Part shown: piece after piece, positions 28,061 to 34,902 of the stretch | Numbering within the stretch: the first letter of the stretch is position 1 | Layout of the letters: each line of letters starts with the position of its first letter | NCBI GenBank assembly: GCA_951812665.1 | Contig: CATOST010000018.1 | Coordinates: forward strand, 186,001 to 250,000 | DNA length: 64,000 nt | DNA from: an uncultured Acidobacteriota bacterium | GTDB lineage: Bacteria; Acidobacteriota; UBA6911; RPQK01; JAJDTT01 | Direction of reading: 5' to 3' | Notes under the pieces: model-generated | Told to the model about the DNA's origin: nothing | The model's database searches: none | Seen by the model: the letters and a program-made list of their open reading frames with translations, nothing else | Translations under genes and position numbers: made by a program

Positions 28061-28730
28061 GTACTCATTAACACTTAAAGTGTGGGATACAGGTTCTTCA
28101 GATTGATCCGTGCGTCCTCCGTCTTGAATTGCCAGTTGATCTCGGTTTGCCGTTGATTCCGATCCACGACCCAGGCCTCGATCTCACGTTGCATCCGGGC
28201 CAGGCTTGGAATGCGGCGGTCGAGGCATTGCCCGCACAGCGTGCTCAGTTCGATTTCCGCAATGTTGAGCCAACTGCCGTGATTCGGCGTGTAGTGGATT
28301 TCGAGACGCTCCGCCAACTGGCGGGCGTGTTCAGGTTGTCCATGACCAGGACGACCCGCTCGGCCTCTGGATATCGCCTCTCCAGCAGGCCCTCGATCCA
28401 CCGGGCCCAGTCCTGGCGCGTGCGCCGTTCGCACGCCTTCACATGGCTTCGCCCGGTCAATGGTTCCACTTCCAGGAAGATCTGCGCGACCCCGTTGCGC
28501 ACGTACTCATGCTCGACCCGCTGCGGCCGGCCGGGCGCGACCGGCAACGGCTCCCGCACTTCTCCGATCAACTGCTTGTTGGTCTCGTCCATGCAGATCA
28601 CCGGACGACGGGGGTCGTACGGACGGGCATAGACTTCCAAAACGTCCTCCATGCAGGCTACGAATGCGGCACTGCCCCGGGGCGGGATCCGCCAGTACTT
28701 CTTCCGATGAGGCTGCAATTGGTTTTTTTA
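28061..28730 (-). pseudogene. IS630-family transposase, C-terminal half
   Basis: QPHRKKYWRIPP...YDPRRPVICMDETNKQLIGE, HYTPNHGSWLNIAEIELS; internal frameshift; left IS630 end after a TA dinucleotide. Confidence 0.85.
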
Positions 28731-28835
28731 GTCGGAACTTCACTGGAGATATTCGCCTAACCCTTTCTAAACCGAAGTTCCAGACTCAGAGACAAGATAA
28801 CTCCCTGATTATAAAGGGATAACCGACGAATCGGA

Positions 28836-30043
28836 CTAGTTGTCCACTGGGAACACCTTGACCAACTCCAGCGCCCGGTGCTGCAGCGGTGTCGGTTCCG
28901 TCAGTCGTTGCAACTTTGGACCGTCCGGGTCCGAGGCCGTTCGGCATTGGTGACGGGCACGTGTCCCCATCTCAGCCATCAGTGTCTTGAAGCTCTGGAT
29001 CGGCAGTCCGTCCTCGGTTTCCCGCTTCGCCTTCTTGCGTTTTGCCGATGCCGACGGCTGGGCTTTCAGCACCGGGTCCCGTCGAGCGCGATGCGCGTCC
29101 AGGTCCTCGTCATCAAACAGCAACGGGGCCAGGGCTCGGCGCAGATGCCACTCGACGTAGTAGGACAGCAGGCACAGGAACAGGTGTGATCGCACCCGGG
29201 TCTCCGCCCGGTGGCGGATGGGACGGATCTGCAAGTTCACGGTCTTCAAAGAGCGGAACGCCCGCTCCACGTTCCCCAGGTTCTTGTAGCTGCGCACCAC
29301 GTCGGCCGTCGACAGCCGCTTTTGGGGCTCACTGGTGCGCAGGATGTAGAATCCGTCCAGTTGCGGCTCGCGGACGATAGCCTCAGTGCGCCGAGCGTAC
29401 TCGAAACGCCCGTCCTCGATCCCCATTTCGAAGTGCTTGGCCACCTTGTACCGGTTCTTGACCCGACCCACCTTCTCGGCAATCTGGGGCGCCAACAAGG
29501 GCGTCTTGGTGCGCCGGGCCACCTCCCGGGCGATCTTGGCCAACTTTTCCTCCGTCGCCGCCAACAGGCGCTCCCGTTTGCGGCGCCGATACTCCCCGAG
29601 CATCGGGTTGTGACAAACGACGAGCCGTTCGCCCGGATAGGCCTCGGTCCGGATCTGGGCCAAGTGACGCTCATCAAAGAGCGAGAGTTGAACCGCTTTC
29701 GTTTCCACCAGTTCGCGGATGGCCGTATGGCGCAGGGCCGAGATCCAACCCAGTCCGGGATGGCGCTTCAGATGCTTGACCTGGGTCTCGGTCAGTAGCC
29801 CTCGGTCCCCGACCAGCACCACCCGCTTCAACCCGAACCGCTGGCGCAACGTCTCCACTTGATCCGGCACCGTGGTCGGATCCCCCGTGTTGCCGGGATA
29901 GGCCTGGACGGCCACCGGCCGTCCCGCCCGATCCGCCATCACCCCGTAGACGATGATGGGCTGGCCGCGCTTGCCGTCCCGGCTGTGGCCGAACCGGGCC
30001 AAGGAACAGGTGTGCCCTTCATAGTAGCTGCTGGACACAACGT
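28836..30043 (-). pseudogene. IS1634 element A transposase, C-terminal part
   Basis: VVSSSYYEGHTCSLARFGHSRDGKRGQPIIVYG onward; separated from its N-terminal part by the LSR unit. Confidence 0.85.
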
Positions 30044-32278
30044 GGATACAAAAGGCGCCTTGTTGTTTGACCGGCGGATTCGCCGTCCGACTCGGAAGGA
30101 GACTCTTGAAATGATCATATATCAGCGTTACTATATGACATATGAGGCGCGCCACACGGCAAGAACGCGTCGAACGGACCAACGCCGCCTACCAGCTCCG
30201 GGGCCGCCACAGCCCAGCGCAGGCAGTTCGCTTGCTGGCCCGTCGCTATGCCCTGTCCCCCGCCCAGGCACGCCGGTACGTGCGAGCGGCGCAGTCCCTG
30301 CAAGCTCCGCTGCCGGAAGTGGCGATCAAAGAGCCGATCACGGTGCGTCTCCCGCGTCCTTTGGTCGAGCAATTGCGGGCCCGGGCGCGGGCCACGGGAC
30401 GCAGCCTGGGGTCGCTCGTGGCCCAGGCCATCGCCCGCTTTCTGTCCGGCGGGACTTAGGATCGAATGCCCCGCATCCGCCTGGTTCAGGTCTTCGACCG
30501 GCTGGCGCACGAACGCCTCGCAGAAGCCTACGGGTTATTGGTTCGAGAGCAAACGTGGTCTACAAGAGGAACCCCAGATGAAAATCGCAAGACTGCCGCC
30601 CGTTCCGGGAACGGTAGCCGTGTACCTGCGAGTGTCGAGTCGGATGAGAGCGCCAGCGCGAAACCATCGCCAGTCAGCGTGAAGCGGTGCTGGAACATGC
30701 GGGCAGCCGTGGTTGGATCATTCCTGAGGAGCAGGTGTTCGCCGACGACGGTTACAGTGGCGCGACGCTGGATCGTCCCGCGCTGGAAGCCTTGCGCGAC
30801 GCGGTTGCAAGCGGCCGGGTCGAGACCGTCCTGGTCTGGGCCGTGGACCGTCTGAGCCGCAATTTCGCCCACCAGATGTTGCTCCAGGAAGAGTTTGACC
30901 GCTCGGGGGTGAAGATCGTCTTCGCCCAGGAACCCGACGATGGCACGCCCCAGGGCATGCTGCTGCGACAAATGCTGTCGGTCATCTCCGAGTATGAGCG
31001 GACCCAGATCGCGGAGCGCTCCCGGCGGGGCAAGATCCATCTCGCCCGTCAAGGTTCGCTGAACATGATCACGCGCGCCCCCTACGGATATCGTGTGATC
31101 CGCAAGACCGAGACCTCTGGCGCACGGCTCGAGATCGACGATGCCGAGGCGACCGTCGTGCGCCGGATCTATGATCTGTATGTCCGCAAGGGGTTAGCGA
31201 TGAATGCGCTTGCGCGCCGGCTCGATGCCGAAGGCTGGCGGCCGCGTCATGCCGAGCTCTGGCCGATCTCGACGGTGGCCGTGATTCTCAGAAACGAGGC
31301 CTACGTGGGAAGAGCCGCGTATCTGAAGACCACCGGCACTGGACGCCGAGCGCGTCCCAACCGCACCGGTCGGCGCCAGCTCGGTATGGTCCGGCGCTGG
31401 ACCGGGCGGACGGCGCGTCCCCGCCGGGAATGGATCGAATTGCCCGTCCCCGCCATCCTTGACGAGACGATCTTCGCGCGAGCGCAGCAGCGGCGGGCAG
31501 ACAACCGCCGCTTCTCTCCCCGCAGGACGAAGGAGGTGACCCTTCTGCAAGGACTTTGCGTGTGTGCGCACTGTGGCTACGGCATGGGAAGGAATTCCGG
31601 GAGTGGCGGTCGCGGCGGCCGACGCCTCCATTACTATCGATGCTACGGAACCGAACAATGGCGTTACGCGCAGGGCGCCGTCTGTGACAATCCTGCGGTC
31701 CGTGCCGAGGACATCGACGACGCGGTGTGGCAGGAGATGCTCACCCTCCTGCAGCACCCGGAACTCATCCAGACCGAAATCGAACGCCGGCTCGTGGCCG
31801 CCAATGACACGGCCTCGCCCCGTCGCCGAATTGAGAGCTTGCAGGGGGAGCTGTCTCGCATCCAGACTCGGTTCCGTCGCCTTCTCGATGCCTACCAGGA
31901 GGGGATCGTAACTCTTGACGAGTTGCGCCGGAGGAATGCTCCCCTGCAAACTCGGCAACGTTCGATCCGATCCGAACTTGAAACCCTGCAAACCTCGGAA
32001 CTCGATCGTGAATCCCAGTTGGCTCTGGCCACCACGATCCAGCAATTCCTCCAGCGCATGCGCCAAGCGGCGCAGTCGCTCTCCATCCTGGAACGTCAGC
32101 GTATCGTGCGTCTACTGGTTCGCGAAGTCATGATCGGGAAGGATTCGATCACGATCTGTCATTCGATCCCGCTCAACGAACTGCCGCCCACAGGTTCCGA
32201 TCCTTCTCCGGGTCAGCTTTCCAACACCAAGAGGGCATCAGGCCGCAGCGGACTTTTGTTTCCACGATATCGTAACGT
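30039..32278 (+). mobile_element. Large-serine-recombinase mobile unit (2235 bp core to core) inserted in IS1634 element A
   Basis: AACGT at both junctions (30039-30043, 32274-32278); arms CTTTTGTTTCCACG (32253-32266) and CGTGGATACAAAAG (30041-30054) form a near-palindromic attP when joined. Confidence 0.8.
30142..30459 (+). CDS. Ribbon-helix-helix-like small DNA-binding protein
   Basis: ITVRLPRPLVEQLRARARATGRSLGSLVAQAIARFL. Confidence 0.6.
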   Translation: MRRATRQERVERTNAAYQLRGRHSPAQAVRLLARRYALSPAQARRYVRAAQSLQAPLPEVAIKEPITVRLPRPLVEQLRARARATGRSLGSLVAQAIARFLSGGT

Positions 32279-32876
32279 CGTAAAGCAAAAGGGTTCGGCC
32301 CTCCAGGTGCCGTCTGGCCAGGCTCTTCTCGATCCAGATCTGGCGTCCCAGCAACCAGTCGAGCATCGCCAGCATCTCGTTGCCGTGGACCGGACCGAGG
32401 TCCAGGAGGGGGCCGAGACTGCTGGTGGCGGTCGAGGGGGACAGTCCCCGGGCGGTGGCGAGCTTGGAGAGAGGTTGGAGCACGCGGGCGACGATGGCGG
32501 CCAGCGCGAGGTCGCGGTTGCGGCTGCGCTTGCGGTGCAGGATGCGGTGGAGACCGAGACGCCGGGCGAGGCCGAGAAGGGCCGCGACATGGCCATGGGG
32601 CAGGGCGCGGCGAATGGCGAGGGACTCGCCCAGAGGGCGAAAGACTTGGCCGCCCTTGAGCAGGGCGCGGATGCCGTCGACGATCTCCGGGGGGAGTTTG
32701 GAAAGATTGGCGAGGGTGGTGCGACGGATGCGCTTGCCCTCGCGTTTGGCTTCACGGAAGAGGATGGCGGGAGGGCTGTTGCGGTTGGGGATAACGTCGA
32801 CGTGATAGGACATGGTGGAGAGGCCCCTTACATGGAAACACATATCCAGATGGGAACTCCACCTGCGAAGCCGTAA
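30687..32876 (+). CDS. Large serine recombinase; catalytic N-terminus (from about 30578) is out of frame
   Basis: DDGYSGATLDRPALEALRDAV, YERTQIAERSRRGK, recombinase domain, zinc-ribbon CAHCGYGMGR; N-terminal VAVYLRVSS lies in another frame at 30578; frame reads through the att junction into flanking IS. Confidence 0.8.
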   Translation: MLEHAGSRGWIIPEEQVFADDGYSGATLDRPALEALRDAVASGRVETVLVWAVDRLSRNFAHQMLLQEEFDRSGVKIVFAQEPDDGTPQGMLLRQMLSVISEYERTQIAERSRRGKIHLARQGSLNMITRAPYGYRVIRKTETSGARLEIDDAEATVVRRIYDLYVRKGLAMNALARRLDAEGWRPRHAELWPISTVAVILRNEAYVGRAAYLKTTGTGRRARPNRTGRRQLGMVRRWTGRTARPRREWIELPVPAILDETIFARAQQRRADNRRFSPRRTKEVTLLQGLCVCAHCGYGMGRNSGSGGRGGRRLHYYRCYGTEQWRYAQGAVCDNPAVRAEDIDDAVWQEMLTLLQHPELIQTEIERRLVAANDTASPRRRIESLQGELSRIQTRFRRLLDAYQEGIVTLDELRRRNAPLQTRQRSIRSELETLQTSELDRESQLALATTIQQFLQRMRQAAQSLSILERQRIVRLLVREVMIGKDSITICHSIPLNELPPTGSDPSPGQLSNTKRASGRSGLLFPRYRNVVKQKGSALQVPSGQALLDPDLASQQPVEHRQHLVAVDRTEVQEGAETAGGGRGGQSPGGGELGERLEHAGDDGGQREVAVAAALAVQDAVETETPGEAEKGRDMAMGQGAANGEGLAQRAKDLAALEQGADAVDDLRGEFGKIGEGGATDALALAFGFTEEDGGRAVAVGDNVDVIGHGGEAPYMETHIQMGTPPAKP
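32274..32813 (-). pseudogene. IS1634 element A transposase, N-terminal part
   Basis: MSYHVDVIPNRNSPPAILFRE...LDWLLGRQIWIEKSLARRHLEGRTLLLYDV, broken at the recombinase unit. Confidence 0.85.
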
Positions 32877-32937
32877 ACTACTCTACTGCAACGATTTGAT
32901 CGATCGAACTATGGCTTGAGGGGCAGTGAAGTTCCGT

Positions 32938-34902
32938 CTAGCCCGCGTTTACCGTATTGGAGATCAGGATAAAGATAAGTTGTTTTTTTGCAAAGAGATA
33001 GAGCAGGTGTCCCGTATGACCTACGGAGCCGCGTCAAGGGGTCGGATGGCGTGTTTTTCGAGTCCCAGGACTTCGTACATCGTGCGCTGTTCGTCCGTCA
33101 TCTGCGAGAGCGTTGTCCGGAGTACGGGCTCGCCGCCCTCCTCCCGCGCTGGGTATAGCACGTCGACCTCGCGGATCCTGCTGAGCGCGTCCAGCAGCGC
33201 GGGGATCGAATCCTGCACGCCGTGGCGGCTCAGTTCCCGCTGCAGCAGGCCGCACAGCATCAGCGCCAGCACGCAGCAGAACACATGCACCGCGATCTTC
33301 TGGTCCGTCCAGTGGTATTGTGGCCGGATGGCGATGCAGTTGCTGTCCTTGAGCTGCCGGAAGGCGCTCTCGACATGATGTTGCGCGCGGTAGCCGCGCA
33401 CCAGCTCGGCGTCGCTCCAGCCCGCCTGGTCGGTGAACAGCAGGGTCTTGCCCAGTAACGTGCGCTGAAGCTGCTCCCAGGCGCGCCGCTGGAAGCGATA
33501 ATTCACCTTCGGCAAGCCGTCCACCTCACGCACCTGAACGGCGACCAGGTCCCGCATGTGCCGGGCCCGCAGCCAGCCGTCGACCTTCTTGCGCGTGCCG
33601 GCCAAGCTCGGCTTGCGTCCCCCCCGGATCTTGCCCTCGCGCCAGCGCCGCAACTGCCACTGCAGGGCGCGCAGGTGCTGGCGCCGCTTAGCGATCTCGC
33701 GCAGCAGCGTCCGACATTGGGCGTCGAACAGCGCTTGGTTCCAAGTCACCAGCACCGTGCGCTGGACGCCGAACACTTTGGACTCGGTGCGGTAGGAGCG
33801 CACACCGGCCAGCCCGTCGTCCTCCAGCGAGCGCATCTGGTCCGCCGGCACGGCCAGCAGGTGCGGATGCTGGGTGGGGACCAGCGAACCGATGAAGTGG
33901 AACGGGCTGCGCTCGACCCAGTCCAAGTTGGGGCGCGAGTTGTTGCCCTTGTCGAAGACCAGGGTGACCGTCTCGGTCCCGGCGGCGAGCTCCCGGTAGC
34001 GCCGGGCCAAGTCGGCGGCGAGGCTTTGGAAGGTTGGCGCGTCGGGGCGGTTGCCGGGATAGGTGCGATGCAGCAGGGGCAGGCGGAAGTCGGCCGTGAC
34101 CAGCAGGGCCACGCCGATGATGCGCAACGACCTGCGGCCCTCCTTGCTGTGACCGCGCTGAGCCAGTTGGGAGCGCTGGTTGAAGGAATTGATGTAGGTA
34201 AAGAAGTTGGTGGCGTCAAACAGCACGTGGCCCAGGTCGAGGCGGAACTCGCGGGTCATGGCGGCAACGATGTCGCGTTCGATGGCGGGTAGGGCGGGGA
34301 CGGGGACGCGGTGCATATGGTCCCAGAAGCGCTGGCTGGTGAGCTGGTTGGAGCGCAGGGGGAGCAGGCGGCGCAGGGCGGTGGAGTCGAACCAACGGGC
34401 GAGGCTGGCCTTGGAGCCGGGGGCGAGGCAGCGGTTGAGGACGGCGGCGAGCAAGTAGGTGCCGACGGAGGGACCGGAGCCGCGCTTGGGGAGATGGCGG
34501 TCGATGTGCTCGACCAACTGCAAGCGGCGGGCGAGGGTAAGCAGGGCGGCCGAGGCCCCGAATTCGCGTACGACCGCCTCGAGCGGCTGGCCGGGGGCGG
34601 GGGCGGCGCGGAGCTTCTCGATGATCTTGTCGGCGCGACCGAGATAGGTCTGGGAGACGATCTTGGGTTTGCCGTCGACGCGCTTGCAGACGCGGGCGTA
34701 GTAGTAGGGGCGGCCCCGGATGATCTTCTTGACGAGGCTGGCCATATAGTTAGGTCATACAAAAATCAATTGGACGAGAGCAAGGGCCTCGGCCGGGCTG
34801 GGTGATAAACCCTTCCTTATCAATAACTTGAATCTGAATCGTCGGTCTGCCCACGCGCTAGGGCAATGCTATGCTGGTGCGAACACGGTAAAGTCGAGCT
34901 AG
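32938..34902 (-). mobile_element. IS1634-family element B
   Basis: Imperfect inverted ends CTAGCCCGCGTTTACCGTATT (32938) and AACACGGTAAAGTCGAGCTAG (34882-34902). Confidence 0.78.
33021..34745 (-). CDS. IS1634-family transposase
   Basis: 574 aa; GHSKEGRRSLRIIGVALLVT, YRAQHHVESAFRQLKD. Confidence 0.88.
   Translation of the reverse strand: MASLVKKIIRGRPYYYARVCKRVDGKPKIVSQTYLGRADKIIEKLRAAPAPGQPLEAVVREFGASAALLTLARRLQLVEHIDRHLPKRGSGPSVGTYLLAAVLNRCLAPGSKASLARWFDSTALRRLLPLRSNQLTSQRFWDHMHRVPVPALPAIERDIVAAMTREFRLDLGHVLFDATNFFTYINSFNQRSQLAQRGHSKEGRRSLRIIGVALLVTADFRLPLLHRTYPGNRPDAPTFQSLAADLARRYRELAAGTETVTLVFDKGNNSRPNLDWVERSPFHFIGSLVPTQHPHLLAVPADQMRSLEDDGLAGVRSYRTESKVFGVQRTVLVTWNQALFDAQCRTLLREIAKRRQHLRALQWQLRRWREGKIRGGRKPSLAGTRKKVDGWLRARHMRDLVAVQVREVDGLPKVNYRFQRRAWEQLQRTLLGKTLLFTDQAGWSDAELVRGYRAQHHVESAFRQLKDSNCIAIRPQYHWTDQKIAVHVFCCVLALMLCGLLQRELSRHGVQDSIPALLDALSRIREVDVLYPAREEGGEPVLRTTLSQMTDEQRTMYEVLGLEKHAIRPLDAAP

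Follow-up and report, generated by a model that had tools for sequence, protein, structure and literature searches.

What kind of element interrupts the transposase gene of an IS1634-family insertion sequence in the DNA studied here, and how did it enter? The question was raised by an insert of ~2.2 kb in the window (the whole 64,000-nucleotide stretch that was analyzed), which a preliminary description had presented as a self-contained mobile unit of a large serine recombinase (LSR). It was indeed found that a unit containing an RHH open reading frame (ORF), a short ORF and an LSR separates the two halves of a minus-strand IS1634-family transposase; the family profile NF033559 matched the right half at positions 2-137 (1.2e-9) and the left half at positions 138-480 (7.2e-72), placing both halves in the family. 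The split falls directly after a YDV motif, which we take to hold the first catalytic Asp of the DDE transposase. A third, divergent and intact transposase of the same family (NF033559, 2.6e-84) lies next to the interrupted one, at 33021-34745.

Inspection of the window sequence confirmed the two junction sequences quoted earlier, with AACGT at 30039-30043 and 32274-32278, spaced 2235 bp apart, but the proposed role of this pentamer as the core was not upheld when other copies in the same genome were compared. The suggested search for an uninterrupted IS1634 copy (attB) retrieved L003 and L004, and their empty site, here called type B, reads AACTGGAGGAAACGTCG. A second copy of the element, L002, reads AACTGGAG-GA-CACAACGTGG at its left junction and TTCCACGATATC-GA-AACGTCG at its right junction. 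Since GA is the sole sequence common to both L002 junctions and the empty site, AACGT is not the exchanged core, and its interpretation as a target-site duplication was likewise ruled out by these sequences; the left AACGT lies within the element, and the right one within the target. No target duplication was evident at the insertion of the element. The AACGT match being coincidental, the healed protein that had been deduced from it (YDVVSSSY) contains an extra Val, i.e., one codon too many, whereas the real IS copies encode YDVSSS (healed form YDVSSSY). The unit in the window extends from 30036 to 32273, with GA as the left and GT as the right dinucleotide (Table 1), and a 2-nt crossover was also found in another member, L022, where comparison with L021 gave AT. 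The attP reconstructed from the element ends is CTTTTGTTTCCACGATATC-GA-CACAACGTGGATACAAAAG, in which inverted-repeat half-sites surround a GA at the exact dyad center; thus, the symmetry of the attP deduced earlier stood, while its length required correction from 37 bp to 40 bp (19+2+19). The junction pattern is not a matter of chance, as dozens of relatives display this geometry.

Table 1 Coordinates of the element, its att sites and its host insertion sequence in the window
Feature	Position	Strand	Basis
3' end of type-B IS1634 element (outer terminal repeat)	28729..28765	-	90% to L003/L004 3' end
Type-A IS1634 transposase, C-terminal part, left flank	28766..30033	-	88.6% to L005/L006, 67% to L003/L004
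Left crossover dinucleotide GA	30034..30035	+	Comparison with empty sites L003/L004 and copy L002
attP half-site P' (CACAACGTGGATACAAAAG)	30036..30054	+	Inverted repeat of 32253-32271; 19-nt spacing kept in family
Displaced 3' tail of the integrase gene (HNVDTKGALLFDRRIRRPTRK), putative	30036..30101	+	In-frame conservation across family
RHH (CopG/Arc-like) protein, 105 aa, intact	30142..30459	+	Pfam RHH_1 2.7e-5
Short conserved ORF (MPRIRLVQVFDRLAHERLAEAYGLLV...), 3' limit approximate	30466..30560	+	Motif upstream of LSR in 70/88 loci
LSR, frameshifted near 30646, no stop before right end of element	30579..32273	+	Intact in L002
attP half-site P (CTTTTGTTTCCACGATATC), also encoding the last LSR residues within the element	32253..32271	+	
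Right crossover dinucleotide, GT in window, GA in L002	32272..32273	+	
Type-B IS1634 transposase, N-terminal part, right flank	32274..32843	-	95.2-95.7% to L003/L004, 65% to L005
5' terminal repeat of type-B IS1634 host (CTAGACGGAACTTCACT on minus strand)	32926..32942	-	Comparison with L004

Judging by its frameshifted LSR, the window copy is a pseudogene. The indel lies just after the RVSS residues and beside the catalytic serine, and the stop codon of the displaced tail was also lost by a G for T at 30099, such that 30099-30101 reads GAG as against TAG in L002. The L002 element is 97% identical to the window copy, and its LSR remains open for 565 codons to the end of attR. It exhibits the domain order of a large serine recombinase, namely Resolvase followed by Recombinase and zinc-ribbon (PF00239, 3.3e-34; PF07508, 1.2e-17; PF13408, 9.8e-14). 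It does not belong to the IS607 family, whose short serine recombinases have an N-terminal DNA-binding domain and a TnpB partner: in the present LSR the catalytic domain comes first and the protein has at least 565 codons, the IS607 profile NF033518 gave 18.6 bits, far below its cut-off of 110, and no TnpB was seen among the ORFs and profile matches of the window unit. With its frameshifted LSR, mutated tail stop, GA/GT junctions and chimeric host, the window copy cannot serve as the ready integrase/attP/attB triple that it had been thought to provide; the usable triple is L002 together with L003/L004. The short ORF between the RHH gene and the LSR carries an F-D-R-L...A-Y-x-L-L-V motif that is kept in most family members, and it and the RHH protein are candidates for a regulator or directionality factor.

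Comparison of the flanks with the related IS copies indicates that the interrupted host in the window is a chimera of two IS1634 types, A on the left and B on the right (Table 1), while the host of L002 is of type B on both sides. The type-A part is followed outwards by a type-B 3' end, and the window element itself, when compared to L002, is a mosaic of ~93% and ~100% identity. The simplest history that we infer begins with the nesting of a type-A IS, carrying one LSR copy, close to the end of a type-B IS that carried another; a deletion between the two LSRs would then have produced the chimera. It could also be envisaged that the LSR itself made the chimera by recombining the att sites of two IS copies, and the position of the A/B switch at the left junction of the element, together with the unequal dinucleotides of the window, would agree with this; nonetheless, we consider it rather unlikely, as the mosaic and the outer B-type 3' end are accounted for at least as well by a deletion through homologous recombination between two LSR copies in nested IS elements.

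The L002 LSR is ~37-46% identical to LSRs on rhizobial and actinomycete plasmids. Eight such regions were inspected, one of them without annotation, and most of the others had an RHH gene upstream and fragments of a group II intron reverse transcriptase (RT) alongside; L020 of Nitrobacter was the exception. A scan of contigs with the single L002 protein as query found no relatives, whereas an alignment query of contigs retrieved 245, of which 80, from many phyla, were kept. The 91 loci analyzed were gathered by LSR similarity, with several per genome, and are therefore non-independent, making the following target proportions descriptive: group II intron RT sequence lay on both sides in 57 of the 91, and an RHH homologue upstream of the LSR in 83. 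The unit common to the family is RHH, short ORF and LSR in ~2.24 kb, and in the 59 loci with the host gene on both sides, its orientation was forward in 30 and reverse in 29. Other hosts were IS1182 (L018, L067), IS110 (L066, L077), IS91 (L011) and IS1634, the last represented by two element copies in one genome; some loci lay elsewhere or ran off their contigs. The host families were backed by profiles TIGR04416, NF033551, NF033542 and NF033538, with profile support for the non-RT hosts at L018, L066 and L011. In the tree, read for topology alone, the IS91, IS1634 and IS1182 lineages were deepest, and the IS110 members were nested among those that target RT. The family is widespread and apparently unnamed, and inserts mostly into genes of other mobile elements.

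The ends of the family members are terminal inverted repeats of ~11-36 bp, with a CTTTTG-type half-site of 19 nt in common. Of the 66 members whose junctions were mapped, 64 have a predicted circle of 2201-2308 bp, and the remaining two (L018, L067) one of ~1.93 kb. Because the palindromic arms interfered with choosing the core by the longest healed ORF, the 19-nt geometry was used instead. By this geometry, the left and right dinucleotides were unequal in 31 of the 66, which makes the 2-nt rule less clean than it is for phage integrases. Strand exchange may tolerate mismatches; alternatively, some of the unequal pairs may reflect a wrong register or truncation at a contig end. Such inequality being frequent in the family, we abandoned the idea that the GA/GT pair ‘locks’ the window copy. 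A few loci had unusual flanks. The element ends of L049 are seemingly embedded in a ~242-bp inverted repeat; the flanking RT matches of L025, L028, L036, L064 and L069 are on opposite strands, and in L064 two N-terminal RT halves face each other, as if two target copies had been joined, either through the palindromic core or by homologous recombination.

Signs of mobility were seen in several relatives. In Bradyrhizobium erythrophlei, Nitrococcus mobilis and Methylocystis, elements with 99.7-100% identity to each other lie between flanking sequences that are, for the most part, unrelated, and such near-identical copies at unrelated sites imply, at the level of sequence, that these relatives are active. 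A rhizobial member could be compared to an empty site of 99.8% identity, and in one strain this gave a clean AT crossover. In B. elkanii strains S05J (L014) and USDA 76 (L022), the element occupies the same RT site, empty in B. japonicum, in opposite orientations; this is expected from the palindromic AT core. How orientation depends on the central dinucleotide is reviewed in PMC3783163. The junctions of L014 have AG next to the clean AT or in its place, an arrangement that is not accounted for by a simple crossover of 2 nt. In two sets of near-identical elements (L041/L042/L045/L060 and L046/L048/L073), the dinucleotides differ between sites, as do, slightly, the bases adjacent to the core.

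The attP appears to lie within the integrase gene itself, such that integration would swap the C-terminus of the LSR. In 66 of the 67 members whose ends were mapped, the LSR frame reaches the right end of the element without a stop, usually reading the attP arm in one frame as YLLRSG-like residues; in the integrated state, the gene continues into the host for anything from 1 to several hundred codons before it stops. When the frame is followed across the joined ends of the predicted circle, it runs into a tail such as HSPNAKGNFCFDRVIALDRSRSVLDLRLKR, which is 29-31 codons long in most members, the full range being 18-49 once the mutated window copy is set aside; that of L002 is HNVDTKGALLFDRRIRRPTRK, followed by TAG. 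This tail would be complete only in the circle form. Alternatively, the left-end segment could be non-coding DNA, i.e., an extended integrase-binding or regulatory site, with the missing LSR stop a by-product of GC-rich sequence and the attP arm. The first tail codons do coincide with the attP half-site, which must be conserved as DNA, and an exact-pattern search of a plasmid collection, IMG/VR and 40 genomes, of a kind that would miss the IS1634 type, found no circle, tandem dimer or contiguous LSR-plus-tail gene. However, beyond the half-site the changes follow codons in the LSR frame only, with a dN/dS of 0.27 in frame as against 1.34 and 1.49 out of frame (27 tails; pairs of <35% divergence, not mutually independent). 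In 25 non-redundant tails, amino acid identity was 43% in the LSR frame and 26% and 22% in the others, and stops numbered 0 versus 20 and 50, the tail ending at codon 30-31 in most members. By these measures the tail looks selected as protein in the phase of the LSR, which, along with the open LSR ends, renders the non-coding alternative improbable.

It is very improbable that the unit is merely the remnant of a phage or integrative and conjugative element (ICE) whose serine integrase landed in the IS by chance, even though LSRs are typical of phages and ICEs and P0001 matches the PHROG 95 integrase, because the family members have a near-constant size of ~2.2 kb without cargo, 2.9 million viral contigs contained only 11 distant relatives (27-36%), and the best phage matches were of 25-36%, leaving only distant relatives in the viral and phage collections.

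We therefore favor, with a probability of roughly 0.8, the reading that the window unit is a degenerate copy of a compact LSR-driven element that carries its attP in the 3' end of the integrase gene and has its tail cut off on insertion. The element boundaries, the 2-nt core of L002, the second copy and the empty sites, the family architecture and targets, the absent stop and the purifying selection on the tail are the parts that the sequences show. In the cycle that we infer, the element would circularize, its circle holding the complete integrase gene with the conserved tail of ~20-30 residues at the end; the tailed enzyme would be expressed and would integrate the circle by a 2-nt crossover into a conserved motif within a gene of some other mobile element, usually a multicopy one. 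In the window, this motif would be the codons around the first catalytic Asp of the IS1634 transposase. Integration would cut the tail off, stranding it at the opposite end of the element, and the integrase gene would then read into host sequence, an arbitrary C-terminus replacing the tail, with a possible effect on activity or direction. Such an effect on direction is plausible, since C-terminal fusions can redirect serine integrases (PMC5737554). A more specific proposal, held tentatively and at somewhat less than even odds, is that the tail acts as a switch, the tailed circle form integrating and the host-tailed form having a changed activity or direction, with no need for a separate directionality factor, in a family that lives by targeting conserved, multicopy, active-site-coding DNA of mobile elements.

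In known systems, a close parallel is found in the archaeal tyrosine integrases whose gene is split at att (PMC8371274). The ‘suicidal’ integrases of the SSV1 type, found in archaeal viruses and plasmids (PMC8371274), likewise have att in the integrase gene, are split on integration, and form a compact module of integrase and site. By its sequence, the present unit would work like them, with att inside an integrase gene that is split on integration, but it is not a member, since its domains are those of a serine recombinase; the SSV1 type is tyrosine and archaeal (PMC8371274), and the present family serine and bacterial. Moreover, SSV integration parts the catalytic domain from the N-terminal part, whereas the present LSR keeps all recognized domains and would lose only the ~20-30 residue tail. 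In mycobacterial prophages, attP lies inside the repressor gene (PMC8092301), and this integration-dependent immunity (PMC8092301, PMC9934374) resembles the present case in that attP is in a coding gene, the free and integrated C-termini differ, and 20-35 residues are lost. There, however, it is the repressor gene that is split, integration relies on a tyrosine integrase, and the lost residues form an ssrA-like tag, whereas here the split gene is the serine integrase itself, and the end of the tail is unlike an ssrA tag. The LSRs of phages and ICEs (A118, TP901-1, SPbeta YokA, TnpX) share the Resolvase, Recombinase and zinc-ribbon domains, the dyad-symmetric attP and the 2-nt crossover; unlike them, the present family has no phage or conjugation genes, appears to hold attP within the integrase gene, and targets mostly mobile-element genes. 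The helper-embedded PICI satellites (PMC10111431) are also integrative elements inside a gene of another mobile element, but they are phage satellites in a prophage late gene, whereas the present element is 2.2 kb and resides in transposase or intron RT genes. The multi-targeting LSRs (Durrant et al. 2022, PMC10083194) are similarly predicted to enter several target genes; they are enriched in DUF4368, which Pfam did not find in the present LSR, and a word search of the main text of that paper returned no reverse transcriptase targets. Searches of the open-access literature found neither a serine integrase gene divided at its own attP nor LSRs in group II intron RTs. The present family would appear to be a serine analogue of the archaeal suicidal tyrosine integrases.

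Serine integrases are major tools of genome engineering, and the basis of their direction is an active question; an enzyme whose C-terminus is changed at each integration would offer a natural and direct test of direction control. The family also provides dozens of candidate LSR/attP/attB triples, and its insertions account for many broken group II intron RTs and transposases. This family appears to be specialized in parasitizing other mobile elements at conserved codons.
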